From contig NZ_AP021861.1 in the NCBI RefSeq assembly GCF_009177095.1, positions 496,001-560,000 of the forward strand: a DNA stretch of 64,000 nt. The letters are read 5' to 3'. Positions 19,642 through 33,776 of this stretch are shown piece after piece; the first letter of the stretch is position 1; each line of letters starts with the position of its first letter. Source of the stretch: Lacipirellula parvula. GTDB lineage: Bacteria > Planctomycetota > Planctomycetia > Pirellulales > Lacipirellulaceae. The notes below the pieces were generated by a model that was given only the letters and a program-made list of their open reading frames with translations, did not search any database and had not been told where the DNA came from. Both the position numbers and the translations under genes were made by a program.

Positions 19642-19688
19642 CCTCGCATCTGCGTCGCCAACCGCCCACTAATCCTGCTGATCCCCCC

Positions 19689-21276: not shown

Positions 21277-21283
21277 GGGCGTT

Positions 21284-21484: not shown

Positions 21485-21510
21485 GACTTTCCTTACCTGA
21501 AGAATCCACT

Positions 21511-21545
21511 AACACCGTCCTTTGCAAAGGACGGTGTTTTTTATT
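21511..21545 (+). terminator. Strong intrinsic terminator of the protease operon
   Basis: AACACCGTCCTTTG pairs perfectly with CAAAGGACGGTGTT and is followed by TTTTTATT. It also lies five bases beyond the stop codon of the convergent transposase gene. Confidence 0.9.
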
Positions 21546-21549
21546 GACT

Positions 21550-22500: not shown

Positions 22501-22626
22501 CACGGACTCCCAACGGTGGGAGCTTTCGCTTATGATTCAGTTACCAGGCTGGAATCTTGCGAAAGCTCGATTTCGGACGCCCCGTCGCGGCCCGCCAAGG
22601 CTGCGTCGGGGTTTTTCTTGCATGGA

Positions 22627-22694
22627 TTTATTGTAGCAACAATAAATGGCCGTGCAATGGTTGACCGTAATATTTTTGTTGCTACATTTATTGC
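22627..22694 (+). promoter_or_regulatory. Operator-promoter region of the ribbon-helix-helix gene
   Basis: TTTATTGT-AGCA-ACAATAAA (22627-22646) is an eight-base-armed palindrome, and its half GTTGCTACA recurs at about 22678-22686 just before the gene. TTGACC near 22661 and TACATT 16 bases later look like -35 and -10 boxes. TACATT ends seven bases before the ATG, so the message would start at or next to the start codon. The arrangement suits autorepression by the encoded DNA-binding protein. Confidence 0.55.
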
Positions 22695-22871
22695 ATGGAT
22701 AAACCAGCAGAACGGGGTCGTCCGCCCAAGCCCCCCGCAGAGCGAAAGACGGCGGAATTGCGAATCCGATTAACGGAAGCCCAGAGGGCCGAGCTGGATG
22801 CTGCGGCGGACGGCGATACGTCAACGTGGGCTAGAGAGTTGCTATTGAAATCTGCACGTCGTAAAAAATAG
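22695..22871 (+). CDS. Small ribbon-helix-helix-like protein
   Basis: A 58-residue protein beginning MDKPAERGRPPKPPAERKTA and continuing ELRIRLTEAQRAEL, a beta-strand-plus-helix pattern of ribbon-helix-helix regulators and antitoxins, then TSTWARELLLKSARRKK. The basic Pro/Arg-rich N-terminal arm is common in such proteins. No toxin-like gene lies directly beside it in the same direction; the next gene begins 129 bases later behind a tRNA-like hairpin. The palindromic operator upstream supports an autoregulating DNA-binding protein. There is no ribosome binding site, which agrees with a leaderless start. Confidence 0.65.
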   Translation: MDKPAERGRPPKPPAERKTAELRIRLTEAQRAELDAAADGDTSTWARELLLKSARRKK

Positions 22872-22874
22872 GCC

Positions 22875-22968
22875 GGAGGATCGGAGAGTCGAACTCATCC
22901 GACATTCGCCAGCTCCCTCCGGCGGCGTATAAAACCGCTGTGGTGGCCGAACCACGGGACGATCCTCC
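22875..22968 (-). other. tRNA-like hairpin element
   Basis: Read on the minus strand, GGAGGATCG at the 5' end pairs perfectly with CGATCCTCC at the 3' end (acceptor-like). GTGG-TTCGG-CCAC forms a D-arm-like hairpin. GCGG...CCGC forms an anticodon-arm-like hairpin with nine loop bases (TTTTATACG). CGGATGAG-TTCGA-CTCTCCG forms a T-arm-like hairpin with one bulged T. The 94-base length resembles tRNAs with a long variable arm (Ser, Leu, Sec). The nine-base anticodon loop and bulged T stem depart from a working tRNA, and no anticodon can be assigned. It could be a decayed tRNA, a tRNA-derived attachment site or an unrelated structured RNA. Confidence 0.35.
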
Positions 22969-23000
22969 CACTCCCTCACTTGAGTAAGTGAATCGGGGAC

Positions 23001-23624
23001 GTGTTCGCGCTTACGGCAAAAATCCTGCGAGAAATACACTTGGCTAGGCGAGATCCAGTAGAAACGGAAGAACTTCGTCTCGCGATGAGCCATGAATCGG
23101 ATCGCGGATGCGTCCTGATCGCGGCAGCTTGGGTGGATGATCAGCTTCGCGTTCTGATTGGCAATATCTTTAAAGACCTCAACGATTGCGGTGTTCACCC
23201 AGTTGCAGCGAAAGAGTTCGACGCCCTGAATAGATCAATCCTTGACGGCTGCTTCGGTAAATCGGTAAATCGTGTTAACTTCTGTCGCCTTATTGGAGCC
23301 ATTGACTCGCCAACAGCAGCGGCAATGGCAGCGCTTTTCCAATTGCGCAACGAGCATTTCGCTCACTTTGCCGGCGTTAGCGAATTAAGCGACAGCGCGG
23401 TGGCACCGAAACTGTCGGAATTCATAGAATCGGTGGTGGAAGCGCATCCCAATCCAGCATCCTTGCAGAACACGGTTTGTGGGCCTGGGCTTGAGCGACT
23501 TCGATTTACGACCGCCTTCGAGTCGCTGAGAGCAACCACCTTCGCCGCAGAAACAAACTTCTTCAAGATTGCGATACATCGTCGACTGCGGAGTCTTCCG
23601 ATCGAGCTGCGACCTCACAAATAA
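23001..23624 (+). CDS. Unrecognised protein with MltR-like ESDRG segment
   Basis: It starts with GTG 23001 right after GGGGAC; ATG at 23085 (MSHESDRG) is an alternative. The segment HESDRGCVLIAAAWVDDQLRVLI (about residues 30-52) resembles the conserved part of MltR-like regulators and related helical proteins (E-S-D-R-G, then a helix with D-x-x-L). LRNEHFAHFAGVSEL looks like the conserved R-N-x-x-x-H motif of such helical families. There is no membrane segment. It converges on and overlaps the 81-residue gene at 23563 by 62 bases. The family assignment is weak. Confidence 0.55.
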   Translation: MFALTAKILREIHLARRDPVETEELRLAMSHESDRGCVLIAAAWVDDQLRVLIGNIFKDLNDCGVHPVAAKEFDALNRSILDGCFGKSVNRVNFCRLIGAIDSPTAAAMAALFQLRNEHFAHFAGVSELSDSAVAPKLSEFIESVVEAHPNPASLQNTVCGPGLERLRFTTAFESLRATTFAAETNFFKIAIHRRLRSLPIELRPHK

Positions 23625-23808
23625 TGTAAGCGACCAACTTCGCTTCCGTGCCGAGATTTGCCCAGCTGTCGTGAAGTTGATAGGGAATATGGTTTCGCCA
23701 GTCATACCTGCGGCCGGCGCTCGCCCAATCAGGTTTCTCAATCGCAGCAAGTACGTCCTTGGCGCATATGTGGCCAATTTTCTCGGCTGCATTAATAATG
23801 CTTTCCAC
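23563..23808 (-). CDS. Small protein of unknown function
   Basis: GTG 23808 is preceded by AGGGGA with a seven-base gap, a good ribosome binding site. The 81 residues have balanced globular composition (MESIINAAEKIGHICAKDVL, then PDWASAGRRYDWRNHIPYQLHDSW). I do not recognise the family. Its 3' end overlaps the 3' end of the convergent gene at 23001-23624 by 62 bases, so one of the two ends may be longer than needed. Confidence 0.5.
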   Translation of the reverse strand: MESIINAAEKIGHICAKDVLAAIEKPDWASAGRRYDWRNHIPYQLHDSWANLGTEAKLVAYIICEVAARSEDSAVDDVSQS

Positions 23809-24071
23809 TGTGACTATCCCCTAAAGAGGGGCAGTGCGTCCTAAGTGCTAGGTAAGACTCGGCTTACAACCCAGCAACACTTAATGACCCACTACCGTAG
23901 ATATCCGCTGCCATTGTCAGAGTCCTGGATGGTGATAGCGAAGTAGGCAGGTAGTAAAATCCATCCGCTGGGCAGTGCGGACCAATTCCTCCGCCTAGGT
24001 CAGAGTTGTGGCACGGTTTGCATTTTTCCCCGTGCACGCGGCTGGCCGGCTCGGCGGAAGGACCGAGCAAC

Positions 24072-24815
24072 ATGGCTGAACCTCTGTCGCTATACCGCGC
24101 CCATTTTGAAGTCGTCTCGTTCTACTTGGAAACCGAGGGCTTGCATTCGACCCTGCGTGGATATGTGAATGCTCTGCCAAGAATTCCAGGTGCGAGCCTG
24201 GAACAAGTCAATTCTGACGTGCTCGCGGATATCCATCGTGCGAGCAAAGAGTCTGGCGAGTTCATGCAGCTAAACAACGACGATGCTCTATGGCTATTCC
24301 GCCGAGCATACGCACAGATGTCCCCTGGGCAACTCATTCGAAACGCTTACGCCAGCTACCATGACTTAGCTTATTGGGTAGCTGAGGGGTTCATCACCGA
24401 TCTGCAGTTCAGCAACAACGATGGTCATGGCGAGTATTCGGGCTCTATGAGCCACTGGCCAACGAGCTTGAACTCAGAAGGCATTCGGGTAGCTTTTGCG
24501 AAGAATGAACATGCTTTTGACGACTTGGTGGCTATCCAGGGCTATCTCAAACTTGAAGCAGCTGCCGCCGCAAATATTGCCCCGTCGATGGCCGTGGAGT
24601 TGACGCGAGACGCAGGGATTTCTGACGATGACCTGACACCAAGAGAGCGAAACATCTTGGAGGCTATTGGAGTCGCCACAATGCAGGCGAAGGAATTGGC
24701 CGAGAAGTCCGGGTATGTGTGCAATTCCAATTTTCGCTCAACGCTTTCAGGGCTCGTGAAGCGGCGTCACCTCAAGAAATGCCTGGATGGTTACGGATAT
24801 TTACGCCAGTCATGA
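24072..24815 (+). CDS. Unrecognised protein with a winged-helix-like C-terminus
   Basis: ATG 24072 is preceded by GGAAGGA; an earlier ATG at 24006 lacks such a site. The protein has 247 residues. The N-terminal two thirds are alpha-helical with aromatic clusters (LYRAHFEVVSFYLETEGL, SYHDLAYWVAEGF). The last 60 residues (LTPRERNILEAIGVATMQAK, KSGYVCNSNFRSTLSGLVKR, HLKKCLDGYGYL) read as a winged helix with a final beta-wing, so it may bind DNA. The base composition is visibly richer in A and T than the flanking core genes, as in the whole 20-25 kb stretch, which suggests transfer. Confidence 0.65.
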   Translation: MAEPLSLYRAHFEVVSFYLETEGLHSTLRGYVNALPRIPGASLEQVNSDVLADIHRASKESGEFMQLNNDDALWLFRRAYAQMSPGQLIRNAYASYHDLAYWVAEGFITDLQFSNNDGHGEYSGSMSHWPTSLNSEGIRVAFAKNEHAFDDLVAIQGYLKLEAAAAANIAPSMAVELTRDAGISDDDLTPRERNILEAIGVATMQAKELAEKSGYVCNSNFRSTLSGLVKRRHLKKCLDGYGYLRQS

Positions 24816-25112
24816 CGCCTTGCTTACATGTCAGTTAGATGCTCGGCGGCGCATTTTTCCCGTAGAGGGCATGTGGGGACACGACATGTCGTCTGACTTG
24901 TCAGCGATATGCTGATAACCGTGTGCGCATAGGATGAGAGCAGCTTGGAAGTCAGCTCAAATCCTTAGTCGTTCGTTAGCGCGAACGACGCAGCGCCCGA
25001 GGGGCACTGGAGTTTGTGATGCGGTTGTTCCCATCCGTTAGAAGGTAGGACCGCACGGCCATGGATGGCCAATGTTGGCAGCGCCAGGTCGGCGCGATGT
25101 TTCTAACTAAAC
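24816..25112. other. Intergenic region with one hairpin
   Basis: GTCGTTCG-TTAGCG-CGAACGAC at 24968-24989 is a perfect eight-base stem. GTTAGAA at 25037 and TTCTAAC at 25100 form a distant inverted pair of the same heptamer that occurs in the promoter repeat further right. I see no gene here. Confidence 0.4.
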
Positions 25113-25367
25113 CTAGAACGGAGCCGTCACCGCGTAAGCAGCTACCCGCTGCCCAAGCGTCAGCCCATCTAGCAAGACGACGCCGCGAGTGTCGCGGTGT
25201 CCGTCAACGCAGACCACCAACTCCCCTTCAGTCCCCGGCGGCAACTCGCACGCCTCGGCAAACGTGAGCGTCGTCCGTCCCGTCTTCGCCAAGCGAATCA
25301 TTGACTCGCCCACCGCCAAGAATGCTTGGACGGTGGCCGAATAGCCGTTGTCGCGTTGGATGCCCAT
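25113..25367 (-). CDS. Small planctomycete-type beta protein, divergent from a kinase-like gene
   Basis: An 84-residue protein with MGIQRDNGYSATVQAFLAVG, IRLAKTGRTTLTFAEACELP, PGTEGELVVCVDG and GVVLLDGLTLGQRVAAYAV. This pattern of an I-R-L-A-K-T strand, a PGTE turn and a V-x-V-D-G strand recurs in small planctomycete proteins of unknown role, recalled from general knowledge. Its start codon abuts that of the divergent gene: the bases CATATG at 25365-25370 are the two start codons back to back. There is no room for a normal promoter between them, so each gene's promoter must lie in the other's coding sequence. Confidence 0.65.
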   Translation of the reverse strand: MGIQRDNGYSATVQAFLAVGESMIRLAKTGRTTLTFAEACELPPGTEGELVVCVDGHRDTRGVVLLDGLTLGQRVAAYAVTAPF

Positions 25368-25904
25368 ATGAATCGATCGGTGCTCGAGGCGAATGCGAAG
25401 AAGTACGCGGAAGTATGCGGAATTCCCTTGGATCTGGCTAGACGGCTCGGTGACGGCACCGATGGCGTCGTCTGGAAGTCAGGCGTCGATACCGCCATTA
25501 AAGCACTGGAATCCCCCCGCGGCTACTACAACGAACGCGACTCTTACCTCCGGCTGCAGGAATACGGCGTCACGGAGCGGCTGGAAGGTTTCTGGCTCCC
25601 AGGGATCATCGGCTACGACGACCAACTTCTGGTAGTGGAGATGGACGTGGTCTCCGGGCCCCCGTACATCCTAGATTTTGCCAAGGTCCGCATCGATCGT
25701 TCCCCGGAGTTCTCGGATGATGCGATGGCCGATTTCCAGCGCCGCGGCGTGGAATGGTGGGGCGAACGCTGGCCGGAGGTCCTTGCTCTGCTGGACGCGT
25801 TGGAGAGCTTCGGAATCTACTACCTCGACCCACGACCAGGGAACATCGTCTTCCCCGGCGATGACGTCGCAACGATGCCTGCCCCAGACCGCCCCGGCGG
25901 TTAG
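25368..25904 (+). CDS. Protein-kinase-like protein with an altered catalytic loop
   Basis: The start at ATG 25368 is chosen; a frame from 25326 would run antisense through the start of the divergent gene. In 178 residues it shows kinase landmarks: ARRLGDGTDGVVWKSG (glycine-rich loop), TAIKAL (ATP-binding lysine), a glutamate in YYNERDSYLRL, LLVVEMDVV (hinge) and IYYLDPRPGNIVFPGDD. In that last segment YLDPRPGN stands where HRDLKPxN is usual. The following DFG is not evident, so it is either a minimal antitoxin-like or HipA-like kinase or a pseudokinase. The stop codon TAG lies inside the first copy of the promoter repeat (GGCGGTTAGAATGCGG). Confidence 0.6.
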   Translation: MNRSVLEANAKKYAEVCGIPLDLARRLGDGTDGVVWKSGVDTAIKALESPRGYYNERDSYLRLQEYGVTERLEGFWLPGIIGYDDQLLVVEMDVVSGPPYILDFAKVRIDRSPEFSDDAMADFQRRGVEWWGERWPEVLALLDALESFGIYYLDPRPGNIVFPGDDVATMPAPDRPGG

Positions 25905-25914
25905 AATGCGGGGC
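25887..25914 (+). promoter_or_regulatory. Promoter repeat copy 1 (partial)
   Basis: CCGGCGGTTAGAATGCGGGG followed by CATG. The left arm GCATTCCCGC of the other copies is missing or degenerate here. TAGAAT as a -10 box lies seven bases before the ATG, so a leaderless message is likely. It contains the stop codon of the upstream kinase-like gene. Confidence 0.55.
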
Positions 25915-26097
25915 ATGGGAACGAACTCAAAGATTTTCGTCTCGACGCTCCTCGGCGGCTCCACTGCTTACCTCTTCGCGTCGCGGCTCGACACCGACAG
26001 CATCGCCATGAAGATGTTCGCGATGGTCCTCCTGACGGTCGCATTTCAGTCGCTGGTTCTCCGGTTAATGGGCTGGAAAATCTCGGCGGACCGATAG
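25915..26097 (+). CDS. Small membrane protein in promoter-repeat cassette 1
   Basis: A 60-residue protein (MGTNSKIFVSTLLGGSTAYL, then MKMFAMVLLTVAFQSLVLRLMGW) with two hydrophobic helices. The ATG at 25906 inside the repeat is in frame and would add MRG; the second ATG is preferred because all related cassettes have one at that place. There is no ribosome binding site. The family is unknown. Confidence 0.55.
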   Translation: MGTNSKIFVSTLLGGSTAYLFASRLDTDSIAMKMFAMVLLTVAFQSLVLRLMGWKISADR

Positions 26098-26114
26098 CCC
26101 TGACCGCGGTCGGA

Positions 26115-26147
26115 TTGCATTCCCGCGCCAGCAGTTAGAATGCGGGC
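26115..26147 (+). promoter_or_regulatory. Promoter repeat copy 2
   Basis: TTGCATTCCCGCGCCAGCAG followed by TTAGAATGCGGGC and ATG. GCATTC pairs with GAATGC around an inner CCGC-rich stem. TTGCAT and TAGAAT could act as -35 and -10 boxes (15 bases apart). It is 18 bases beyond the preceding stop codon. Confidence 0.6.
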
Positions 26148-26291
26148 ATGCGTACAAGCCATACACTTCCCGGCGACCCGCTGATGCTCATCGGGATCGC
26201 GGCTGCACTTGCCGGGTTTGTCTTCTACAGCGTTAAGTTCTACGGCTGGCGATTCTGGCGCTGGCCGCGCGATTGGTGGTGGCCAAGCTGA
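26148..26291 (+). CDS. 47-residue membrane protein in promoter-repeat cassette 2
   Basis: It begins MRTSHTLPGDPLMLIGIAAA, has one hydrophobic helix (LMLIGIAAALAGFVFYSV) and a tryptophan- and arginine-rich end (FYGWRFWRWPRDWWWPS). Its stop codon TGA is the start of the 32-base tail element. It is supported by its position exactly between the promoter repeat and the tail repeat, both of which recur with other small genes. The family is unknown. Confidence 0.5.
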   Translation: MRTSHTLPGDPLMLIGIAAALAGFVFYSVKFYGWRFWRWPRDWWWPS

Positions 26292-26320
26292 CCCTGGCCG
26301 GGAGTCTGGGGGCTGAGGAC
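26289..26320 (+). repeat. Tail element copy 1
   Basis: TGACCCTGGCCGGGAGTCTG followed by GGGGCTGAGGAC; TGA is the stop codon of the cassette gene. Copies at 28281 and 28915 also begin at a stop codon. GGCC is palindromic, but the element as a whole is not a strong hairpin and has no T-run. Confidence 0.6.
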
Positions 26321-26408
26321 GGCAATCCATCTCATCACGGCGAGAAGTAAGTCGCGCCGCACCGCAGCAAGCCCCAATTTTAAGCCACGCATCCTTTTTT
26401 CTTCTTAG

Positions 26409-26431
26409 CCCCCGGTTCTTCAAACCGGGGG
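26409..26431. repeat. Hairpin at the head of duplicated leader block, copy A
   Basis: CCCCCGGTT-CTTCA-AACCGGGGG is a perfect nine-base stem, preceded by TCTTCTTAGC. The identical hairpin opens copy B at 30709. A T-run lies before rather than after it on this strand, so as an intrinsic terminator it would serve minus-strand transcripts poorly and plus-strand transcripts not at all. Confidence 0.7.
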
Positions 26432-26447
26432 CGATGCGTCACGCCAC

Positions 26448-26522
26448 GGGGTCGGGGACCTTTTGCCACTGGCGGCGCTCCACTGAATTGACGATTCCGA
26501 GTGGCAAAAGGCCCCCGACCCC
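26448..26522. mobile_element. 75-bp MITE-like inverted-repeat element
   Basis: The ends are 23-base inverted repeats with one mismatch (GGGGTCGGGGACCTTTTGCC..., ...GGCAAAAGGCCCCCGACCCC) around 29 unrelated bases. The element is absent from the second copy of the surrounding leader block at 30732-30750, where the flanks join, so it looks like an insertion that post-dates the duplication. No coding capacity. Confidence 0.7.
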
Positions 26523-26549
26523 TTCTCGCGCCGCCATTTTCTCAGGTGG

Positions 26550-26807
26550 CCAAATTTCGTTGTAGAAACTGGGCCACCGAATCTGCTAACGTGAACAAAA
26601 GATCACTTCGTGTGCGAAGCAACAAAACCAGCGAGCCCCCCGGTTCATCCGGGGGGTAGTTCGCAGCGCACACGACGATCGCCAACCGCACGGTGCTGCA
26701 AACCAAAATCACCCCACAGACAAGCCGGGGGGCTCGCTGGTGCACAAACATTAAACGTTCCGCAGGCAGTCGCGACCAAACACGAATCAAACCGAAGGGG
26801 AAAAAGC
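26550..26807 (+). promoter_or_regulatory. Duplicated leader block, copy A, with switchable GC-rich stems
   Basis: GTTGTAGAAACTGGGCCAC...TGCTAACGTGA is shared with copy B (30780 onward). Next comes CCAGCGAGCCCCCCGG (26628), which can pair locally with CCGGGGGG (26649) across a five-base loop. It can instead pair with CCGGGGGGCTCGCTGG ending at 26740, giving 16 bp; the two pairings exclude each other. The last 60 bases carry GAAGGGG before the ATG at 26808. It is either a REPIN-type repeat or a leader RNA, and cannot be decided here. I see no other gene in 26292-26807. Confidence 0.45.
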
Positions 26808-27842
26808 ATGATCATCCAAAATCGCCTCCGCGGCCGGCGGCGGGTGCTCGACGAGGCGAAGCAGGCTCGCCTCTGCGAGCTCGTCGCGAAGGAAAGCTAC
26901 AGCGTCGAAGAAGCGGCCGAGTCGCTCGACGTCTCGCTGCGAACCGTGCAGCGCGAACGCCGCCACAACGAAGAGTTCGACGATGAACTGCGACTCGCCC
27001 TCCAACAGAAACCCAACCCGATGAAGCTGATGGTGGAAGCGGCGCGAACGCACTGGCGAGCCGCGGCTTGGCTGCTCGAGCGGACGAAGCCCGAGGAGTT
27101 CGCTCGCAAGCCGGCGAACATGACGAGCTTCAAGCTCGTCGCCGCGGCGTTCGGCTATCTACAAGAGACGGCGCTCGCGGCCGTTCCCGAGGAATGCCGC
27201 GCGGTCCTCTACCAGCAAACGCAAGCCGCGATCGAAAAGTCGGTCGACTGCTGCTTTCCGATGCTCGGCCCGCGGGGCAAGCTGCGGGTGAAGAAAGTTC
27301 CTACCAAGACGCCGCTGGCCGACCTCGAGGGGCGCAAAAACGTCCGCGTCGTGCACGACCGCGACGAGCAGGGCGACGTCACCGTGTCGCTGTCGATCGA
27401 TCCGGCGGAGGTCGACGCCCGTCAAACGCGAGAGGCGGCGCGGGAGACGCAGCGTGCGGAGCTGAGGGAGCGTCTCGCGGAAGAGCGCCGCCAGCAAGCG
27501 TGCGACGAGCGGCCTGCCGCGGGAATTATGTCGCCAAAAATCGCTAAAACGACAAAATGCGACGCAACAAAAGAGCCTGCCGCAGCCAGTTCGACGAACT
27601 CAAATGACATAGAGCGTGTCGTCGCGACGTTCGAGCCGAGGGTCGACGACGAATGCCCCGAGACGCGGCGCCATTCAGAAGAACTCAATCATCCCGACGC
27701 GCAAGATCCTTGCGAACGGCTGCAACTGCTCGGCGATGGCCTCGACCGTCAGCGCCGCAGCGAGCGACGCCAGCAACGCGCCGCGGCGAAGAAGGCCAAA
27801 GCCGCCAAAAGACGGGCCGCCCGCAGCCGCCGCGCTGCGTGA
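26808..27842 (+). CDS. Helix-turn-helix protein of a planctomycete family (phage-like small-subunit type)
   Basis: ATG 26808 follows GAAGGGGAAAAAGC. Residues 10-60 form a homeodomain-like HTH (RRVLDEAKQARLCELVAKES, YSVEEAAESLDVSLRTVQRE). RTHWRAAAWLLERTKPEEFA follows, the segment that characterises planctomycete HTH proteins resembling terminase small subunits or transposon regulators (recalled from general knowledge). Residues 150-250 are mixed. The last 100 residues are Arg/Ala/Lys-rich and probably disordered (ERRQQRAAAKKAKAAKRRAA). The stop codon touches a palindromic repeat at 27843. The same leader block stands before the 57-residue gene at 31027, suggesting a shared regulator or shared origin. 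Confidence 0.7.
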   Translation: MIIQNRLRGRRRVLDEAKQARLCELVAKESYSVEEAAESLDVSLRTVQRERRHNEEFDDELRLALQQKPNPMKLMVEAARTHWRAAAWLLERTKPEEFARKPANMTSFKLVAAAFGYLQETALAAVPEECRAVLYQQTQAAIEKSVDCCFPMLGPRGKLRVKKVPTKTPLADLEGRKNVRVVHDRDEQGDVTVSLSIDPAEVDARQTREAARETQRAELRERLAEERRQQACDERPAAGIMSPKIAKTTKCDATKEPAAASSTNSNDIERVVATFEPRVDDECPETRRHSEELNHPDAQDPCERLQLLGDGLDRQRRSERRQQRAAAKKAKAAKRRAARSRRAA

Positions 27843-27982
27843 CCTCGTTCCCACGCTCCGCGTGGGAACGCAAAGCCCGACGCTCTGCGTCGCGCGACCA
27901 ATCATCGCCAAACAAAAGCGCCACGCAAATGCCGCGGGAGCGGCGAAGAGGCGACGTTCCCACGCGGAGCGTGGGAACGAGG
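27843..27982. repeat. Inverted pair of GTTCCCACGC...GCGTGGGAAC repeats
   Basis: CCTCGTTCCCACGCTCCGCG (27843) and CGTTCCCACGCGGAGCGTGG (27955) are inverted copies, each itself palindromic. GCCCGACGCTCTGCGTC lies beside the first. The same two units lie side by side at 47850-47895. It is a REPIN-like element beginning directly at the stop codon of the HTH gene. Confidence 0.8.
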
Positions 27983-28095
27983 AGAAGATCATTCCGGCTA
28001 TCGAGAGACGCCGCGACAGCATCATTCGGCGAACTAGCGGGCTTGGAGCAGTCTCATCCATATCTCGCCAAGGATACACAGCTTGTCGCCCGCTC

Positions 28096-28127
28096 GCATT
28101 CCCGCGTCAGCGGTTAGAATGCGGGGC
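28096..28127 (+). promoter_or_regulatory. Promoter repeat copy 3
   Basis: GCATTCCCGCGTCAGCGG followed by TTAGAATGCGGGGC and ATG. GCATTC pairs with GAATGC, and CCGC with GCGG, leaving TTA bulged on the 3' side; TAGAAT is seven bases before the ATG. Confidence 0.6.
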
Positions 28128-28283
28128 ATGCGAATTCGCTTTAACGTCCGTTGGCTACTACTGCTAATGGCAATCGCAGCATGCTTCCTGACCCTGAACG
28201 TGCTTGCGGATCGGTGGTTCAGCAAGCCATTCCGGGATTTCTATTTCCCACAGAAACCCGCCGCCGGCGCTTCCGTCCCCTAA
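28128..28283 (+). CDS. 51-residue membrane protein of the planctomycete RFxxRxLLLL type
   Basis: MRIRFNVRWLLLLMAIAACF and LTLNVLADRW give a basic R-F-N-V-R start and one hydrophobic helix. That combination is characteristic of many small planctomycete membrane proteins of unknown role, and it recurs in the gene at 28574 on the other strand (RFSLRVMLLLV). The rest is a short periplasmic or cytosolic tail (FSKPFRDFYFPQKPAAG). The stop codon TAA is the first codon of tail element copy 2. No ribosome binding site; the start is dictated by the promoter repeat. Confidence 0.6.
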   Translation: MRIRFNVRWLLLLMAIAACFLTLNVLADRWFSKPFRDFYFPQKPAAGASVP

Positions 28284-28313
28284 CCCCGGCCGGGAGTCTG
28301 GGGGGTGCGGGGG
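28281..28313 (+). repeat. Tail element copy 2
   Basis: TAACCCCGGCCGGGAGTCTG followed by GGGGGTGCGGGGG; it begins at the stop codon of the preceding cassette gene. Here the stop is TAA instead of TGA, but bases 3-20 match copy 1 with one difference. Confidence 0.55.
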
Positions 28314-28361
28314 CGTGGTCCAAGATGCGTGCGATCTCCAGCGGAGGGCGAGCGATCGTCC

Positions 28362-28574
28362 CTACTTGGAACGCCACCGCTGCACGGCGCGAACCACCCT
28401 GATCGGTATTTCAATCAACAGCTGAGGGGCGCCTAGAATCACCCCGCCCGCTAAGGCAATGGCGAAGTATGCCCAAAACTCGCCCGGCAGGAGCGAAGCG
28501 GCATAAGAGGCAGCAGCGAGACCGGCCACGAGCAGCAGCATTACTCGCAAGCTGAATCGTATCTTCCCGTCCAT
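28362..28574 (-). CDS. 70-residue membrane protein of the RFSLR type
   Basis: MDGKIRFSLRVMLLLVAGLA has the planctomycete R-F-S-L-R start leading into a hydrophobic helix; a second helix follows (FWAYFAIALAGGVILGAP), then an amphipathic basic end (IRVVRAVQRWRSK). TATAGT lies eight bases before the ATG on the minus strand, so its message may also be nearly leaderless. It is related in design to the gene at 28128. Function unknown. Confidence 0.6.
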   Translation of the reverse strand: MDGKIRFSLRVMLLLVAGLAAASYAASLLPGEFWAYFAIALAGGVILGAPQLLIEIPIRVVRAVQRWRSK

Positions 28575-28610
28575 AGTGCTTAACTATAGCAGGTGATGCG
28601 GACCGGCCGA

Positions 28611-28644
28611 TTGCATTCCCGCGCCGGCGGTTAGAATGCGGGCT
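28611..28644 (+). promoter_or_regulatory. Promoter repeat copy 4
   Basis: TTGCATTCCCGCGCCGGCGG then TTAGAATGCGGGCT and ATG; the most regular copy. GCCGGC is a self-complementary core. The upstream eight bases ACCGGCCG resemble those of copy 2. Confidence 0.65.
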
Positions 28645-28917
28645 ATGTATCGCATCGTACTAGTATGCCGCGGAGTTCCAGCGGAAATCGGCCTCGAAGC
28701 AGCAGCTGACATAACAGCTGAGTTTCGGGAATACCGCACGTGGTACGAGAATGTGACATGCGTCTGGGCGTATGGACTGCTGGTTCTTCAGGCTGAAAGC
28801 GACTGCGACGAGCAAGGGCTCGCTCTCTCCGATGAGTTTTCTGATTGCATCTCCGCCTGTACACCCACGACCTTTGACTTTGAGATCGAGGTTGAGTCCG
28901 TTGCACCGCTCACCTGA
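28645..28917 (+). CDS. 90-residue soluble protein in promoter-repeat cassette 4
   Basis: The start at ATG 28645 follows the repeat; an in-frame ATG nine bases earlier lies inside it. The protein MYRIVLVCRGVPAEIGLEAA, with WYENVTCVWAYGLLVLQAE and FDFEIEVESVAPLT, reads as an alternating beta-alpha-beta fold with acidic surface and no hydrophobic leader. I do not recognise it. The TGA stop begins tail element copy 3, so this gene has both cassette boundaries, as does the gene at 26148. Confidence 0.6.
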   Translation: MYRIVLVCRGVPAEIGLEAAADITAEFREYRTWYENVTCVWAYGLLVLQAESDCDEQGLALSDEFSDCISACTPTTFDFEIEVESVAPLT

Positions 28918-28946
28918 CCCCGGCCGACAGTTTGGGGGCTGAGGAG
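28915..28946 (+). repeat. Tail element copy 3
   Basis: TGACCCCGGCCGACAGTTTG followed by GGGGCTGAGGAG; TGA is the stop codon of the preceding gene. Confidence 0.6.
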
Positions 28947-29010
28947 TTTTATCACTGGCCTAGAGTACGCAACCCCGACCGGAGGGGTGAGAAGCCTCGA
29001 AGCGGCGTCG

Positions 29011-29226
29011 CTAAGAAATCTTCTTGCCGGTAGTCGTGTATCCGATCGCGATGAAGATGATTGCGGCTGCGGCGATGATCCCTGTTGATTGAAGGTCTTT
29101 TAGTCCATCCTCGTAGAGACCAAATGCCAAGAGACCGAGCAGGAGGATTCCGCCGGCGTAGCTTGATAAGCCGATGTAGCGGTTGAGCGCGTCGCGGCTA
29201 GACGGGCTGTTCTTTTCGGATTCCAT
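29011..29226 (-). CDS. 71-residue membrane protein
   Basis: ATG 29226 (MESEKNSPSSRDALNRYIGL) is preferred over 29313 because the extra residues are not protein-like. Two hydrophobic helices follow (GGILLLGLLAFGLYEDG and GIIAAAAIIFIAIGYTT) with a basic end TTGKKIS. TATCGT lies seven bases before the ATG, again a possible leaderless arrangement. Family unknown; it lies among the small cassette genes but on the opposite strand. Confidence 0.5.
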   Translation of the reverse strand: MESEKNSPSSRDALNRYIGLSSYAGGILLLGLLAFGLYEDGLKDLQSTGIIAAAAIIFIAIGYTTTGKKIS

Positions 29227-29330
29227 ACTGCTCACGATAGCAAAGTGACTGTATGCGTGATAGTATCCGGCGGCCCTGGCGGCGGCCAGACTCGACGCAC
29301 GGGAGACTAACAATCCACCAGACTCGGCAA

Positions 29331-29351
29331 GGCGTCAGCCGTAAAGACGCC
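29331..29351 (+). promoter_or_regulatory. Hairpin just before the bS21-like start codon
   Basis: GGCGTC-AGCCGTAAA-GACGCC is a perfect six-base stem ending four bases before the ATG, where a ribosome binding site would lie; none is visible. It could control translation of the ribosomal-protein-like gene. Confidence 0.4.
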
Positions 29352-29355
29352 GGCA

Positions 29356-29598
29356 ATGGGAATAAGGATCGAGCGGACGAGCGACGAATCGCTCTGCGCA
29401 GCGCTAGCCCGTTTTAACCGACTGAGTCGCCAACAGCATCGCCGAAGCTGGGCGAAGGCTCGCCGCGGCTACTACGAAAAGCCCAGCGTGGTGCGGCGGC
29501 GCCAGGCAGCCATCGGCTTAATAAGTTCGCGACGCTCCACCGTCGGCATGGCGCCCTTCAAGCGATATGCGAACCTTGGCAGCCTGCTTCGCCGGTAG
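29356..29598 (+). CDS. rpsU: bS21-like ribosomal protein paralogue
   Basis: The 80-residue protein contains the bS21 signature: MGIRIERTSDESLCAALARF, then a basic helix and RRGYYEKPSVVRRRQAA, close to the R-x-x-YEKPSxxRRRKxA core of bS21. Its C-terminal extension (RRSTVGMAPFKRYANLGSLL) is longer than in most family members, which have 55-75 residues. bS21 binds the small subunit near the anti-Shine-Dalgarno region and affects initiation. A copy lying among accessory small genes rather than a housekeeping operon is likely a second, accessory paralogue, which this window cannot prove. Confidence 0.75.
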   Translation: MGIRIERTSDESLCAALARFNRLSRQQHRRSWAKARRGYYEKPSVVRRRQAAIGLISSRRSTVGMAPFKRYANLGSLLRR

Positions 29599-29624
29599 CG
29601 GGCGTACAGCGGATCGCTAAGTGT

Positions 29625-29656
29625 GCATTCCCGCGCCGACGGTTAGAATGCGGGGC
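29625..29656 (+). promoter_or_regulatory. Promoter repeat copy 5
   Basis: GCATTCCCGCGCCGACGG then TTAGAATGCGGGGC and ATG; it differs from copy 4 by one base in the inner stem and by GGGGC for GGGCT before the ATG. Confidence 0.6.
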
Positions 29657-29845
29657 ATGAAAATCACACCGGCGGCAATTGAAGAAGCGAGACAAAACCC
29701 CAACGGCTGGGTCTATGTCATCAATGGGAGCTACGGCCCGAATGATGCGGTTCCTCCGCACGCCATTGAGGGCGCGTGGAAGGTGGACGCTGCCGGGCGG
29801 ATCTCAGGGGAATTTATCCCTAATCCCAACTTCAAGCGGGGCTGA
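29657..29845 (+). CDS. 62-residue soluble protein in promoter-repeat cassette 5
   Basis: MKITPAAIEEARQNPNGWVY, then VINGSYGPNDAVPPHAIEGA and WKVDAAGRISGEFIPNPNF. The pattern P-N-G-W-V-Y-V-I-x-G...A-V-P-P-x-A-I-x-G-A-W-x-V-D belongs to a small protein family I associate with several bacterial phyla, without a known function. No leader or membrane segment. The start is fixed by the promoter repeat. No tail element follows its TGA. Confidence 0.65.
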   Translation: MKITPAAIEEARQNPNGWVYVINGSYGPNDAVPPHAIEGAWKVDAAGRISGEFIPNPNFKRG

Positions 29846-29889
29846 GCGTCGGTAGTGCTGGCGGAAACGTGCGACTCTAACGGCGCGAG

Positions 29890-30078
29890 CTAGGGGCGTA
29901 TCGGCCTGCTTCTCCACCAAAGATAAGCCAATGCACAGCACACGATGATCGCTGACGACACAGCCCCTTCCCACCGGCCGCGAAGACACTCGACCACAAA
30001 CACGCCGAAAGCGATCGCGAGCATCAGTCCCACGAGGACCAGGACCAGCCAGTATTCTCTGCGAGAATTAAACGCCAT
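29890..30078 (-). CDS. 62-residue membrane protein
   Basis: ATG 30078 gives MAFNSRREYWLVLVLVGLML, with a second helix after a short basic loop (CLRGRWEGAVSSAIIVCCAL) and the end WWRSRPIRP. Longer frames to 30255 have no coding character. No clear ribosome binding site; the upstream bases are A/T-rich (TTATTTAG...GCAAAAAT). Family unknown. Confidence 0.5.
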   Translation of the reverse strand: MAFNSRREYWLVLVLVGLMLAIAFGVFVVECLRGRWEGAVSSAIIVCCALAYLWWRSRPIRP

Positions 30079-30224
30079 ATTTTTGCATTCGGCGATGAGA
30101 CTAAATAATTGCCTTCCCGCGTCGGCGGCCAGCGGCGGGGCTATTCCCACAAGACCGTCACCGCGCATTTTGACGAACGGGATCGTCAGCAGCAGGAAGG
30201 CGAGGAGCGCACGCTGCGAGCCCC

Positions 30225-30581
30225 CTACTCCGGCCACTGCCTGAAGACGACGCACACGCCAGTTTTATCGAGCAGCGAGAACTCCAGCGCTCCCCACGGC
30301 CGTTGCGTCACCCGCGGCAAGTTCGGGTGAAGCAGATCGGGCCGCTTCGCAGCGACCTCGCGATGGAGCTCTTCGATCGTGTCGGTCTCAATCGCAATCT
30401 CCGGCCGATCCTTTGCGGCATACTCCGCGCTCGCGACGACGTACGCCTTGGCGCTGTCGCGGCCGACCACGGCCAGTTCCCCGTCCTGATACAGCACGGT
30501 GAAGCCCAACCCGTCGACGAACAGATCGAGTCCCTCCTCCATCCGATCGAAGAAGACTTTCGGTATCAAGCGAATCATCAT
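30225..30581 (-). CDS. VOC/glyoxalase-fold protein
   Basis: ATG 30581 follows CGGGGGA. The 118-residue protein starts MMIRLIPKVFFDRMEEGLDL and continues FVDGLGFTVLYQDGELAVVG, the F-Y...x-LGF-V pattern of the vicinal-oxygen-chelate superfamily. E at IAIETDTIEELHREV and the final WGALEFSLLDKTGVCVVFRQ (metal-ligand E in the EF-x-L-D-x-x-G strand) agree. Relatives include bleomycin-resistance-type and dioxygenase-like proteins; the substrate cannot be told. It has a single domain, so it is expected to dimerise. Confidence 0.75.
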   Translation of the reverse strand: MMIRLIPKVFFDRMEEGLDLFVDGLGFTVLYQDGELAVVGRDSAKAYVVASAEYAAKDRPEIAIETDTIEELHREVAAKRPDLLHPNLPRVTQRPWGALEFSLLDKTGVCVVFRQWPE

Positions 30582-30708
30582 CAGCGCGTCCCCCGCTCGG
30601 GCCTCGCATGGTCGCGAGGCCATTGAAAAGATTTTGGAACAGAGCGACCAGTATATCGCCGCGCACCGTCAACGCTCGAATGTTGTCCACGTATCAGTTT
30701 CTTCTTAG

Positions 30709-31026
30709 CCCCCGGTTCTTCAAACCGGGGGCGAGTCCGCAGCTTTCTCGCGCACGCCGCCCAACAATTCCTCAAACTTTGTTGTCGAAACTGGGCCACT
30801 AGTTTTGCTAACGTGAGCACTCCGTTCACCGCAATGCGCGCCACATGCCTGCTTCGCGATTCCTCGGTTTATCCGGGGGGAAGTCCGCAGCGCACAACGC
30901 ACCGCCGACCGGAACGCGCCACACCCAAATTCCCCCCCCGGACAAGCCGGGTGGCTCGCCATCGTACGACAACGCAGCGCCCAGCGCACTCTCCTCACTT
31001 ACTCACCTAAACGCTCACGCTTCACC
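30709..31026 (+). promoter_or_regulatory. Duplicated leader block, copy B
   Basis: It repeats copy A in order: the hairpin CCCCCGGTT-CTTCA-AACCGGGGG (30709-30731), TTTCTCGCGC, GTTGTCGAAACTGGGCCAC (30781) and TGCTAACGTGA. Then come CGGTTTATCCGGGGGG...GTCCGCAGCGCAC and GGACAAGCCGGGTGGCTCGC (to 30960). It lacks the 75-bp insertion of copy A. The GC-rich arms can again pair locally or with each other. The following 60 bases up to the ATG have no clear ribosome binding site. No gene is seen in 30582-31026. Confidence 0.5.
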
Positions 31027-31200
31027 ATGCCCCTCGACCTTACCCCCGCCGAAATCGAGCAGCTCATCGAAGCCCTCGACTGCCTCAAAACCAAATTTGC
31101 GTTCGTGAAAAAGGGCGCCTCCTACGCCGAGCGGACCGCCAAGCTGCTTGAGGCCGAGACGCTTGAGCAGAAGCTTCGTGCGGCGCTTGGCGAAGCTTGA
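31027..31200 (+). CDS. 57-residue helical protein behind leader copy B
   Basis: MPLDLTPAEIEQLIEALDCL, then KTKFAFVKKGASYAERTAKL and LEAETLEQKLRAAL: a highly charged protein predicted to be two amphipathic helices, coiled-coil-like. I do not recognise it. It shares its upstream block with the HTH gene at 26808, although the two proteins are not similar. The start is the first ATG with coding character after the block; the assignment rests on composition and position. Confidence 0.5.
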   Translation: MPLDLTPAEIEQLIEALDCLKTKFAFVKKGASYAERTAKLLEAETLEQKLRAALGEA

Positions 31201-31275
31201 ACCTCGCCGCAGGCACTGCTGGCGCCGCGTTAGATGAACTAGCTCCAACGTCGCAACGGAAGTACAAATTGCCGC

Positions 31276-31509
31276 ATGCGTCGCCGCCTCGCGCCTACTT
31301 GCCGAGCCTTGCTCTTCCTCGTCGCTGCGACGGCGCTCGCCGGCTGCCAGTCGGGCATCACCGCCGCCCATCGCATGATCGAAGGCCAAGCGATCGAACG
31401 AACTCTCGACTATCCCGAAGCGCCGCTGAGCCAACGCTTCGACATGCCTGTCGAACAACCCGCGCAGAAGAAAGCATTAACCGCGAATCACGCGAATCTT
31501 CGCGAATAA
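31276..31509 (+). CDS. Small lipoprotein whose C-terminus is encoded by a repeat
   Basis: MRRRLAPTCRALLFLVAATA leads to LAGC, a lipobox. The mature part is short (QSGITAAHRMIEGQAIERTL...) and ends ALTANHANLRE; the last ten residues are written by the inverted repeat at 31481. It is 77 residues long. The family is unknown. The read-through suggests that the repeat inserted at the original stop and supplied a new one. Confidence 0.6.
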   Translation: MRRRLAPTCRALLFLVAATALAGCQSGITAAHRMIEGQAIERTLDYPEAPLSQRFDMPVEQPAQKKALTANHANLRE

Positions 31510-31561
31510 AGCAGAGTGGCATCGACCTCTTTCCATTAGCGCAGATTCGCGTGATTCGCGG
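31481..31561. repeat. Inverted repeat CCGCGAATCACGCGAATCT
   Basis: The 19-base left arm (31481-31499) is perfectly repeated in inverse orientation at 31543-31561, with 43 bases between. It overlaps the stop codon of the lipoprotein gene and could terminate its transcript. Confidence 0.75.
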
Positions 31562-31674
31562 TCCGTTCCCGCATTCCTTGGCGCTCTTGGCGTCCCTGGC
31601 GGTTCAACTCCCAGCGTCTCGCCAGAGTTGAAATCACCGCCCCAACGGCTATCATTCAACCGGCAACTGCTGCC

Positions 31675-31716
31675 CCGGACGAGACGCGCCGTACCCGGTC
31701 ACGCGAAGACGACGCT
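31675..31716 (+). ncRNA. Guanidine-III (ykkC-III-type) riboswitch aptamer
   Basis: CCGGACGAGACGCGCCGTAC, CCGGTCACGCGAAGACGACG and C closely follow the compact guanidine-III aptamer as I remember it (CCGGACGAGG...GCGCCGUACCCGGUCA...AAGACGGCGC). CCGG pairs with CCGG. GCGCCGT (31686-31692) pairs with ACGACGC (31709-31715), with one C-A mismatch where the remembered sequence has C-G. GACGACGC (31708-31715) is also an exact complement of GCGTCGTC (31742-31749), between the ribosome binding site AGGAGG and the gdx start codon. Ligand binding would therefore free the start site. The gene downstream exports guanidinium. Confidence 0.85.
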
Positions 31717-31749
31717 CCGAACTCGCTCACTCGTTCAGGAGGCGTCGTC

Positions 31750-32070
31750 ATGCATTGGTGGTATTTGCTCGTTGCCGGATTGCTCGAAGTCGGTTGGGCC
31801 ATCGGCCTGAAATACACCGACGGTTTTACGAAGCCCCTCGCGAGCGTGCTCACTGCCGCGGCGATCGTCGGCAGTATGGTGTTGCTTTCGCTCGCCGCGC
31901 GGACGATCCCCATCGGCACCGCGTACGCCGTGTGGACCGGCATCGGTGTCGCCGGCGCCGCGACGCTCGGCATCGTGCTGTTGGGCGAAGCGGTCACGCT
32001 CAGCCGATTGTTCTTCCTCGCGATGCTGCTGGTGGCGGTGATCGGGTTGAAGGTTACCTCCGGCCATTGA
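31750..32070 (+). CDS. gdx: Guanidinium exporter (SMR family, SugE/Gdx)
   Basis: The 106-residue SMR protein has four membrane helices: WWYLLVAGLLEVGWAIGLKY with the conserved E14-type glutamate in LLEVGWA, then a helix around VGSMVLLSLAARTIP, IPIGTAYAVWTGIGVAGAAT, and LFFLAMLLVAVIGLKVTSG. W-A-I-G-L-K-Y-T-G and G-T-A-Y-A-V-W-T-G-I-G fit the Gdx/SugE subgroup rather than drug-exporting EmrE. It exports guanidinium in exchange for protons in the inner membrane. The start is ATG 31750 with AGGAGG at 31737-31742. The guanidine-III-type aptamer in its leader gives matching regulation. It stands alone, without a paired SMR subunit. Confidence 0.93.
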   Translation: MHWWYLLVAGLLEVGWAIGLKYTDGFTKPLASVLTAAAIVGSMVLLSLAARTIPIGTAYAVWTGIGVAGAATLGIVLLGEAVTLSRLFFLAMLLVAVIGLKVTSGH

Positions 32071-32170
32071 TCGTAAATCGCTAGAAGCCATTGCCGAATA
32101 AGCAGCCCGGCCAATGCTGCGCCTGCCGCTGACCCGCTGCGCGAGATATGAGATACTGGGCCGCACGATG

Positions 32171-32269
32171 ACTTTGTGGGAGGCGTCTCCGACGCCGATG
32201 CCTTTCACCACCATATGCCGTTATGGTCGGTGAGCGCCGCTTCGGGGTCGGAGACCCCTCCCACAAGTT
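32171..32269. repeat. Inverted pair CTTTGTGGGAGG...CCTCCCACAAG
   Basis: ACTTTGTGGGAGGCGTCTCC and GGTCGGAGACCCCTCCCACA are inverted copies around about 45 bases. It lies between gdx and the oxidoreductase start and belongs to the REPIN-like class. Confidence 0.7.
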
Positions 32270-32309
32270 TCCGATCGAAGTATTCATTCCACAGAGCAAC
32301 TTGCCTAAG

Positions 32310-33776
32310 ATGCCGACCGAAGCCGACAAGTACCCGAAGATCGCCCAACTGAAGAGCGTCGATGCGCTACGCGCGCGGCTGACGGAACTGGGCGTCGCGT
32401 TGCCGCTCGACGACGAGATCCAAACAGCCGCGGCCGGTTCGCCGCTCGCGCAGCCGATCGACGTTGGCGGCTTTCGCGTCGGCAATCGGTGGTGCATCCA
32501 TCCGATGGAAGGGTGGGACGCGAATCGCGATGGCTCGCCGAGCGACTACACGCTGCGGCGGTGGCGCAACTTCGGCCGCAGCGGCGCTAAGCTCATTTGG
32601 GGCGGCGAGGCGGCCGCGGTGCAGCCCGACGGCCGCGCGAATCCGAATCAAACGCTCGCTACGCCCGAGAACAAGCGCGGCCTTGCGCAGTTGCTCGAAG
32701 AGTGCCACGCAGGCCATCGCGAGCAGTGCGGTACGCTCGACGGCTTGCTGGTCGGTTTGCAGCTCACTCATTCGGGGCGGTTCTGCAAGCCGGCCGATCA
32801 CGCCAAGTGGGCGCCGCGGATCGCGTACCATCATCCGCTGCTCGATGAGAAGTTTAAGATCGATCCCGCCAACGACGCTTGCGTGTTGACCGACGACGAA
32901 CTGGAAACGTTGATCGACGACTACGTCGCCGCGGCCCATCTAGCCGCCGACGTCGGCTACCAGTTCGTCGATGTGAAGGCGTGCCACGGCTACTTGCTGC
33001 ACGAGTTCCTCAGCGCACGGACGCGGCCTGGGCGATTCGGCGGCGATCTCGACGGCCGCTCTCGTGTGTTGTTCACCATCATCGATCGCATCCGCAGCGA
33101 GCTGCCGAGCTTGATGATCGGCGTGCGGCTGAGCGTGTTCGACACCGTGCCCTATCGCACGAGCCGCGAGGTCGGCCAGCCGATGGACTACGCGCAGCTG
33201 CTTCCCTACGGCTGGGGCTTCGGCGTCGACGAGCACGATCCGCTGCGGTTCGATTTGGCCGAGCCGATCGAGCTGATGCGGCGACTCGTCGCGCACGGCG
33301 TGGCGATGATCAACATTACCTGCGGCAGTCCCTACTACGTTCCCCACATCCAACGCCCAGCGATCTTCCCGCCGAGCGACGGCTACCAACCGCCGGAAGA
33401 TCCGCTGGTGGGCGTGTGGCGGCAGCTCGATGCCGTGCGGCAATGCAAGGCGGCGCTCCCCGACGTGCCGTTCGTCGGCAGCGGTTACTCGTACCTGCAG
33501 GACTACCTTCCCCACGCGGCGCAGCGTGCCGTGCGCGACGGTTGGGTCGACTTCGTCGGCCTCGGCCGGATGGTGCTCAGTTATCCCGAGCTGCCGCAGG
33601 ATTGCCTGGTCGAAGGGAAGCTGAAGCGGAAGCTTGTCTGCCGCACGTTCAGCGACTGCACCACCGCGCCGCGGCATGGGCTCATCTCCGGCTGCTATCC
33701 GCTGGATGAGTACTACAAGCGGATTCCGGAACGCGAGCAGTTGGTGGCGATTAAGCAGAAGCTGGGCGAAGGGTAG
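32310..33776 (+). CDS. Old yellow enzyme family NADH:flavin oxidoreductase
   Basis: ATG 32310 is preferred; an upstream frame from 32223 is written by the repeat. The 488-residue protein is a TIM barrel with flavoenzyme motifs: RVGNRWCIHPMEGWDANRDG, LIWGGEAAAVQPDGRANPNQ, GLLVGLQLTHSGRFC (HxGR active-site region), ADVGYQFVDVKACHGYLLHE with substrate-proximal H, FLSARTRPGRFGGDLDGRSR, VGSGYSYLQ, and VDFVGLGRMVLSYPELP (FMN phosphate site). Such enzymes reduce activated double bonds with NAD(P)H. Compared with typical OYEs of 350-370 residues it has an extended N-terminus and insertions. The substrate is unknown. Confidence 0.88.
   Translation: MPTEADKYPKIAQLKSVDALRARLTELGVALPLDDEIQTAAAGSPLAQPIDVGGFRVGNRWCIHPMEGWDANRDGSPSDYTLRRWRNFGRSGAKLIWGGEAAAVQPDGRANPNQTLATPENKRGLAQLLEECHAGHREQCGTLDGLLVGLQLTHSGRFCKPADHAKWAPRIAYHHPLLDEKFKIDPANDACVLTDDELETLIDDYVAAAHLAADVGYQFVDVKACHGYLLHEFLSARTRPGRFGGDLDGRSRVLFTIIDRIRSELPSLMIGVRLSVFDTVPYRTSREVGQPMDYAQLLPYGWGFGVDEHDPLRFDLAEPIELMRRLVAHGVAMINITCGSPYYVPHIQRPAIFPPSDGYQPPEDPLVGVWRQLDAVRQCKAALPDVPFVGSGYSYLQDYLPHAAQRAVRDGWVDFVGLGRMVLSYPELPQDCLVEGKLKRKLVCRTFSDCTTAPRHGLISGCYPLDEYYKRIPEREQLVAIKQKLGEG

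Follow-up and report, generated by a model that had tools for sequence, protein, structure and literature searches.

A 64-kb window of the Lacipirellula parvula genome (bases 496001–560000 of its single 6,922,258-base contig; this whole stretch is the window below, and coordinates refer to it unless another source is named) carries five small genes on its forward strand, each starting at an ATG behind a copy of a promoter-like repeat (Table 1). We call this start-side repeat P, its type in the window being family A, and find a second repeat, E (TGACCCCGGCCGGGAGGCTGGGGGCTAGGG, ~30 bp), whose first codon is the stop codon in each of genes 2, 3 and 4. Both repeats also occur in the genus-mate Lacipirellula limnantheis I41 (NZ_CP036339.1), which allows the surroundings of these putative cassettes to be compared between two genomes. 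Element counts refer to about 30 fetched loci (numbered L below) that were picked for element matches and are not whole genomes, with one strain per species; A and E copies were counted in 29 loci of the two genomes, A being accepted at ≥72% identity to its consensus.

Table 1 Repeats, small genes and surrounding slot in the window (aa, amino acids; ORF, open reading frame)
Feature	Position	Strand	Remarks
Variable slot between conserved flanks, 11.5 kb in L. parvula	20130–31660		Delimited by synteny
Promoter-start repeat 1, right part only (CCCCGGCGG TTAGAAT GCGGGGC), ATG at 25915	25886–25914	+	74% to A consensus; lacks the left half
Small gene 1, 60 aa, membrane-like by eye	25915–26097	+	No Pfam or PADLOC match; one marginal PHROG, E-value 0.0095
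Promoter-start repeat 2 (A), ATG at 26148	26113–26147	+	Starts 16 bp past the gene 1 stop
Small gene 2, 47 aa	26148–26291	+	Stop TGA is the first codon of E
First copy of stop-end repeat E (87% to consensus)	26289–26318	+	Sequence match
Promoter-start repeat 3 (A), ATG at 28128	28092–28127	+	Sequence match
Small gene 3, 51 aa, RFxxR-type, one hydrophobic stretch (by eye)	28128–28283	+	Stop TAA coincides with the first E codon
Second copy of stop-end repeat E (83%)	28281–28310	+	Sequence match
Divergent small ORF, own TATAGT box 8 nt before ATG, opposite gene 4	28365–28574	-	Read from sequence
Promoter-start repeat 4 (A, 95%), ATG at 28645	28609–28644	+	Sequence match
Small gene 4, 90 aa	28645–28917	+	Stop TGA is the first codon of E
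Third copy of stop-end repeat E (80%)	28915–28944	+	Sequence match
Promoter-start repeat 5 (A, 92%), ATG at 29657	29621–29656	+	Left end GCTAAGTGT common with family B
Small gene 5, 62 aa	29657–29845	+	No E at stop

The exact string TTAGAATGCGGG occurs five times on the forward strand of the window (25901, 26135, 28114, 28631 and 29643), with an ATG directly after each occurrence. As a 12-mer alone, searched at up to two mismatches, it is not significant (eight matches versus 4.34 expected, eight being reached in 7 of 100 shuffles). The 27-base unit GCATTCCCGCGCCGGCGGTTAGAATGC, at up to three mismatches, is found five times in the 6.92 Mb of the L. parvula genome versus zero times for the reversed control. 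A sequence-only reading of this DNA had described nearly identical 30–35 bases ending at five ATGs; the repeat is real and four of the five copies show the full-length front GATTGCATTCCCGCGCCGGCGG, or come near it, including the left half of P, GATTGCATTC, but the copy placed at 25887 consists of the right part only. This partial copy (25879–25917) lacks GCATTCCCGC and has just CCCCGGCGGTTAGAATGCGGGGCATG in common with the others. We also confirmed that the 64-kb window holds no sixth A copy.

Outside the window, family A is narrowly distributed. In a comparison of 59 genomes, matches at up to two mismatches are restricted to L. parvula and L. limnantheis, plus one off-consensus match in another genome (G024), and L. 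limnantheis holds 15 more copies at this threshold, several of them clustered near 2.00 and 4.62 Mb. A degenerate A pattern run against the GTDB species set, which may omit the window's own genome, matched L. limnantheis alone (nine stretches, ten matches), and the looser pattern CGGTTAGAATN5-8ATG was present in 21 of the 59 genomes, with 14 matches in L. parvula, 12 in L. limnantheis and zero to three in each other genome. In the 29 loci, 34 A-type copies were counted, seven in L. parvula and 27 in L. limnantheis.

The spacing between the TAGAAT box and the start codon is tightly held. In the five window copies the gap is 6–7 bases, and among the 34 A copies it is 7 nt in 24, 6 nt in five and 8 nt in two, the remaining three (L047+8589, L092+4906 and L095+3275) having no proper ATG; another copy, L096+3691, is followed by a reading frame of just 13 codons. 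The placement of the box six to eight bases before the ATG, claimed from the window alone, thus extends to 31 of 34 copies, and most copies elsewhere are indeed tied to start codons. A TANNNT box lies at the leaderless-type distance of 6–7 nt in 29 of the 34; the third base of TAnAAT is the most variable and the others are kept in most copies, with one TTGAAT and one TAAGAT among the 31 copies that have an ATG. Genome-wide, TAGAATN4-9ATG occurs 69 times in L. parvula versus 23 times in the reversed control, and the spacer is 6–7 bases in 47 of the 69. Because TAnAAT fits a -10 element at this distance, it is likely to be the -10 element of a putative leaderless promoter. The same motif 6–7 bp before ORFs has been tested as the -10 of leaderless genes in Deinococcus (PMC12340547), and leaderless promoters with a -10-like box ~12 bp upstream have been inferred for other phyla (PMC3160421). 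A comparative study places Planctomycetes, represented by one sampled planctomycete, among the phyla with few Shine-Dalgarno genes, with a bias described as fitting leaderless messages and/or RPS1 (PMC5397173).

At five places TAnAAT-ATG can be read on both strands of A. Opposite-strand TAnnnT-ATG gene starts lie in A at L043 8737(-), L044 4110 and 7423(+), L045 6526(+), L046 1906(+) and window 28574(-), an arrangement like a divergent promoter pair.

The hairpin that the sequence-only reading had proposed for A fared less well. By their letters, GCATTC can pair with GAATGC and CCGC with GCGG, but among the 25 distinct cores obtained from 28 full copies (six of the 34 copies lack the left half and were excluded) no compensated change was found at any of the ten pairs, and in 13 of the 25 the two bases beside TTA, at core positions 5 and 21, fail to pair. 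With zero compensated changes among the distinct full copies, the hairpin is unsupported, and the reading of A as a hairpin kept by covariation was rejected.

The repeat unit as it had been read, from P to the ATG, was incomplete: it is one end of a larger structure, whose second conserved end, E, had been overlooked, and similarly constructed repeats exist besides. Two reading frames meet a stop codon in E, of which 38 copies were counted, six in L. parvula and 32 in L. limnantheis. A P copy lies within 700 bp upstream of 25 of them, with a clear ATG in 22. Ten of these 22 P-started ORFs stop at the first codon of E, seven read into E and stop at a TAG 25 bases on, so that the proteins end in PDPGREAGG or a variant, and three stop at most 12 nt before E; in total, 20 of the 22 end in or just before E. 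From E to the next P, distances range from contiguous to >700 bp. E has a potential stem of eight pairs, with a GGGA loop in most of the 38 copies, and has no constant T-run. At up to three mismatches E occurs in three of 39 genomes, namely L. parvula, L. limnantheis and one further genome, G004.

To judge the relatedness of the genes that use these ends, 67 ORFs were compared by all-against-all BLASTP at an E-value threshold of 0.01. No pair among the five window proteins reached it, in agreement with the earlier claim that they are unrelated and not tandem paralogues; over the whole set just 18 pairs of distinct ORFs did, several of them through the tail encoded by E. The protein of gene 4 has no match at an E-value of 0.001 in the five other genomes of the genus. 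One recurrent family, MKxxLxxNLAIG (100 aa, but 68 in L044), follows A in three loci, L048, L090 and L044; in L094 it has another front. Protein family scans covered ten cassette proteins each, the five non-window proteins of the Pfam set differing partly from those of the PHROGs and PADLOC sets. Pfam returned two sub-threshold matches among its ten and no toxin family above cut-off, PHROGs one marginal match only (E-value 0.0095) and PADLOC no match. Ratios of non-synonymous to synonymous substitution (dN/dS, by NG86) were obtained for nine informative pairs, six of which belong to a single four-member family, a tenth pair being near identical: the ratio is 0.31–1.14 in eight of the nine and 0.16 in one, versus 0.12 and 0.15 for two flanking orthologues. 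From this comparison, most of the cassette genes measured look like weakly constrained, fast-evolving coding genes.

Next, by aligning the surroundings of all element copies pairwise, we observed that long homologous stretches break off at the repeats. At A, L048 and L049 are 98.4% identical over 307 bp up to 1 bp past the ATG, and L044 and L046 are 89.7% identical over 731 bp, ending inside A a few bases before the ATG; in both cases unrelated genes lie beyond. At E, L043+16721 and L093-13516 are 91.8% identical over 110 bp, starting 2 bp before E with unrelated genes ahead of it, and L095 and L099 are 97.7% identical over 691 bp, beginning at the first base of E. Further breaks fall at the end of G, a repeat described below (L049/L094, 92% over 545 bp to the left; L045/L093, 91% over 309 bp), and one gene is found together with its P in both L. 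limnantheis and L. parvula, with the left break exactly at the A edge. Homology breaks were seen at A, E, F and G. Among alignments of at least 100 bp between 30 loci, giving 588 ends of high-scoring segment pairs, 26 ends fall in an element on both partners versus 0.28 on average and at most 4 in 1000 circular shifts, and 83 fall in an element on either partner (shifts: mean 24.7, maximum 68); since these ends are not independent and the loci were fetched for holding elements, the ratio outweighs the exact figure. These breaks at the ATG, together with downstream proteins that are mostly unrelated, support the earlier proposal that promoter and start codon are provided by the end of a recombining cassette.

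Other repeats constructed in this way also precede small ORFs, and we designate them A2, B, C, D, F and G, of which D, C, F and G emerged from a pile-up of local alignments. The order D-C-F-G is complete in three L. parvula loci (L080, L083 and L088), parts of it occur in L081, L084, L087, L089, L090 and L091, and L086 has only D; in L. limnantheis, E-F-G is found in L049 and L094. Front A2 is a variant of A placed after the stop of a repeated gene of ~150 aa.

The repeated family in question (~140–150 aa, LRYALATFCFAASVxCL...) has its stop at the left edge of A2 in L043 14191–15850, L048 8759–12146, L049 5275–7488 and L046 9804–9869. A second imperfect palindrome, CACTTAAT...CCACCCCTTCT-AGGT-GTGG...TAAGTGTGCAG, is present in L. 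limnantheis (638581–640905) and at window 29616; its right end, TAAGTGTGCA, equals the left end of front B and resembles the left end of the window copy at 29621. Another intergenic repeat, GGAGTGCGAGAGCGAC...GACAATTATCACGACGAAGTTTTGC-GGACATCATGTCCGGC, occurs in about nine copies in the L. limnantheis loci L044, L045 and L046 (for example L044 417–495).

Taken together, we consider it probable that these structures are exchangeable expression cassettes for very small genes, in which cargo is replaced mainly via recombination in the shared ends. The 5′ end, P (~35–40 bp), ends at the start codon, with the -10-like TAnAAT 6–8 nt before it, and transcription would begin at or next to the A of the ATG to give a leaderless message. 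The 3′ end, E, typically begins at or near the stop codon and would close the reading frame, perhaps the transcript too. One cargo gene would replace another mostly through homologous recombination or gene conversion within the short common ends, which would also keep those ends alike.

Several observations weigh against this interpretation, besides the dependence among alignment ends given above. For 13 of the 38 E copies the 700 bp upstream contain no P, and for three others the P found there lacks a clear ATG; two of the 22 P-started ORFs are off pattern, one stopping 334 nt before E and one reading through, and window genes 1 and 5 have no E at their stops. In the L095/L099 pair the reading frame of L099 continues across E, and TGG replaces E's TGA at L095+5704, so this break marks the edge of E and not a used stop. 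Counts over the 38 E copies gave no clear compensated change in the stem, and a terminator role of E is therefore only a guess. A standard -35 is not evident at P. An ATG follows the box at 6–9 nt less often in the other families than in A (D 8 of 9, F 12 of 16, C 5 of 9, G 6 of 14), which makes C and G less clearly starts, and L094, L045 and L093 show no recognisable ORF start past G. No breakpoints were seen at C or D, and none of 35 C pairs and none of 35 D pairs has a common flank of at least 40 bp, so these two families are uninformative on exchange. Among the ORFs near the clusters that were scanned for recombinases, none is tied to the cassette ends. Lastly, the P copies might stay alike with no exchange at all if they are a regulatory site under selection.

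That last point leads to an account in which P and E are plain regulatory sites under selection, a common leaderless promoter with one regulator and a common terminator, and the genes arose separately with no exchange between them. The fixed spacing of the -10-like box and the genome-wide excess of TAGAATN4-9ATG do suggest promoter function, and the imperfect palindrome GCATTC...GAATGC in A could bind a dimeric regulator. We nevertheless regard this account as unlikely, given the long, near-identical flanks that give way to different genes at the ATG or the E edge, and the breaks at A, E, F and G (C and D pairs having no long common flank). Tandem or dispersed duplication of one gene family followed by fast protein divergence is very unlikely: some true relatives exist (the family in L048, L090, L094 and L044) and most measured proteins evolve fast, with dN/dS of 0.31–1.14 in eight of nine pairs against 0.12 and 0.15 in the flanking genes, but divergence cannot yield near-identical flanks with wholly different genes past the ATG, and the 18 related pairs among 67 ORFs at an E-value of 0.01 are few and in several cases owed to the E tail.

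If exchange does take place, it might instead be carried out by a dedicated site-specific recombinase or transposase acting at the P and E ends, integron-like but with other sites. The breakpoints do sit at the ends, cassettes lying at other sites between species end at A and E edges (L048/L090, left 0; L090/L094, right -4), and a serine resolvase (L043 4766–5353) and phage-type integrases (L081 937–2277 and the left end of L049) score over the Pfam cut-off. Homologous recombination in ends of 30–40 bp, however, predicts the same breakpoints, and the distance from E to the next P is not constant. Since the recombinases found belong to different families and the L. parvula genome has 23 integrase-model matches, their neighbourhood to the cassettes is likely to be chance, and we judge such an enzyme improbable. 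Still further down the scale, and in our view extremely improbable, are integron gene cassettes (clusters of attC sites lacking integron integrases, CALIN), with A and E as the attC sites. Small promoter-near cassettes in same-strand clusters would fit, CTAACCCCGG in E mirrors CCGGGGTTAG in front B, and a true integron integrase is encoded in L. limnantheis (438.7 bits, cut-off 265), with a partial one in another genome, G005 (316.5 bits). The best TIGR02249 match of L. parvula, by contrast, reaches 78 bits against the cut-off of 265, and the attC-like sites beside the L. limnantheis integrase are of the classical GTTAGGC type (one by pattern, others by eye), unlike A or E. The attC consensus has an R'' box RYYYAAC and an R' box GTTRRRY. 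At the supposed R' position A reads GTTAGAA, GTTAAAA or GTTACAA, sometimes GCTAAAA or GGTAAAA, which departs from that consensus, and the GTT of the supposed R' box is altered in L043+11104, L043+16391 and L046-6078. With no integrase over cut-off in L. parvula and with A and E unlike the classical attC-like sites of L. limnantheis, we rejected integron or CALIN membership.

Compared with known systems, the cassettes share with those of integrons their small size and promoter-near position, same-strand clustering, unrelated cargo, a short repeat between genes and a start codon a few bases after the repeat. They differ in having two separate ends, at the ATG and at the stop, instead of one attC, in carrying a -10-like box in the repeat, in the lack of an integrase over cut-off in L. 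parvula and in ends unlike the classical attC-like sites of L. limnantheis. Mobile or propagated promoters in prokaryotes place homologous promoter DNA ahead of non-homologous genes; the structures described here have, unlike these, a matching 3′ end, with junctions at the start codon and the stop element. Morons are phage accessory genes with their own promoter and terminator. A likeness to those of temperate phages (PMC7067206) would lie in single accessory genes with putative expression signals of their own; it is limited in that the cassettes are chromosomal and clustered, their ends are common to unrelated genes, and one marginal phage-family match was obtained for ten proteins. Leaderless TANNNT promoters of Deinococcus and Actinobacteria (PMC12340547 and PMC3160421) also have a -10-like box close before the ORF, but as a loose genome-wide motif, whereas here the box is part of 35–40 bp near-identical repeats at putative exchange breakpoints. 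Polymorphic toxin cassettes swap a variable module between conserved flanks (PMC3482391); in our case whole tiny genes would be swapped rather than C-terminal domains, and none of ten proteins had a toxin match above cut-off. Among the literature matches listed on planctomycete leaderless promoters, cassettes, repeats or mobile promoters, no title or abstract opening describes such cassettes.

Small orphan genes abound in bacteria, and their route to expression is an open question. In the cassettes, expression signals and gene turnover seem to form one structure, with a promoter-like repeat up to the ATG, a stop element and swaps at the edges, and the two complete genomes provide natural before-and-after pairs. 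It is possible, though doubtful, that Lacipirellula has a cassette system of its own, in which universal start and stop ends act as standing expression slots where unrelated small frames are placed and replaced by a dedicated, unrecognised recombination; if true, this would be an engine for trying out orphan proteins, with an integron-like role and a different build. For annotation, the conserved ends call for caution, as they are not protein parts, and E read in another frame adds the tail PDPGREAGG or a variant to some products.

The window cassettes lie in a variable slot whose flanks (17000–20129 and 31661–33769) are syntenic with L. limnantheis 635516–638581 and 640905–642781 at 81–87% identity. 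The same slot spans 2.3 kb in L. limnantheis, where A and E, in two copies each, surround other genes and the -10 of one of these A copies is degenerate. In a further genome, G002, ~450 bp separate the matches to 20078 and 32331, and both the cassettes and the riboswitch-transporter stretch are unmatched. The riboswitch, of the guanidine-III family (31656–31718 (+), 54.2 bits, gathering threshold 36), is the sole known RNA family in the 8 kb searched; the gene behind it (31750–32070 (+)) encodes by eye a small multidrug-resistance-type membrane protein, presumably a guanidinium exporter. Several matching direct repeats, 4.2–4.3 kb apart (26398–26737 and 30698–30959), flank cassettes 3–5 and a gene at 26808–27842 with a weak helix-turn-helix match, and because the copy at 30698–30959 lies near the syntenic edge, the repeat at 26398–26737 may be a duplication. 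Separately, L078 15731–18660 of L. limnantheis (from 1027730 onward in its genome) encodes a complete integron integrase, accompanied by attC-like sites of the classical type and by small cassettes. An IS1-type transposase (Pfam DDE_Tnp_IS1) is also encoded in the variable slot, at 21550–22500 (-).

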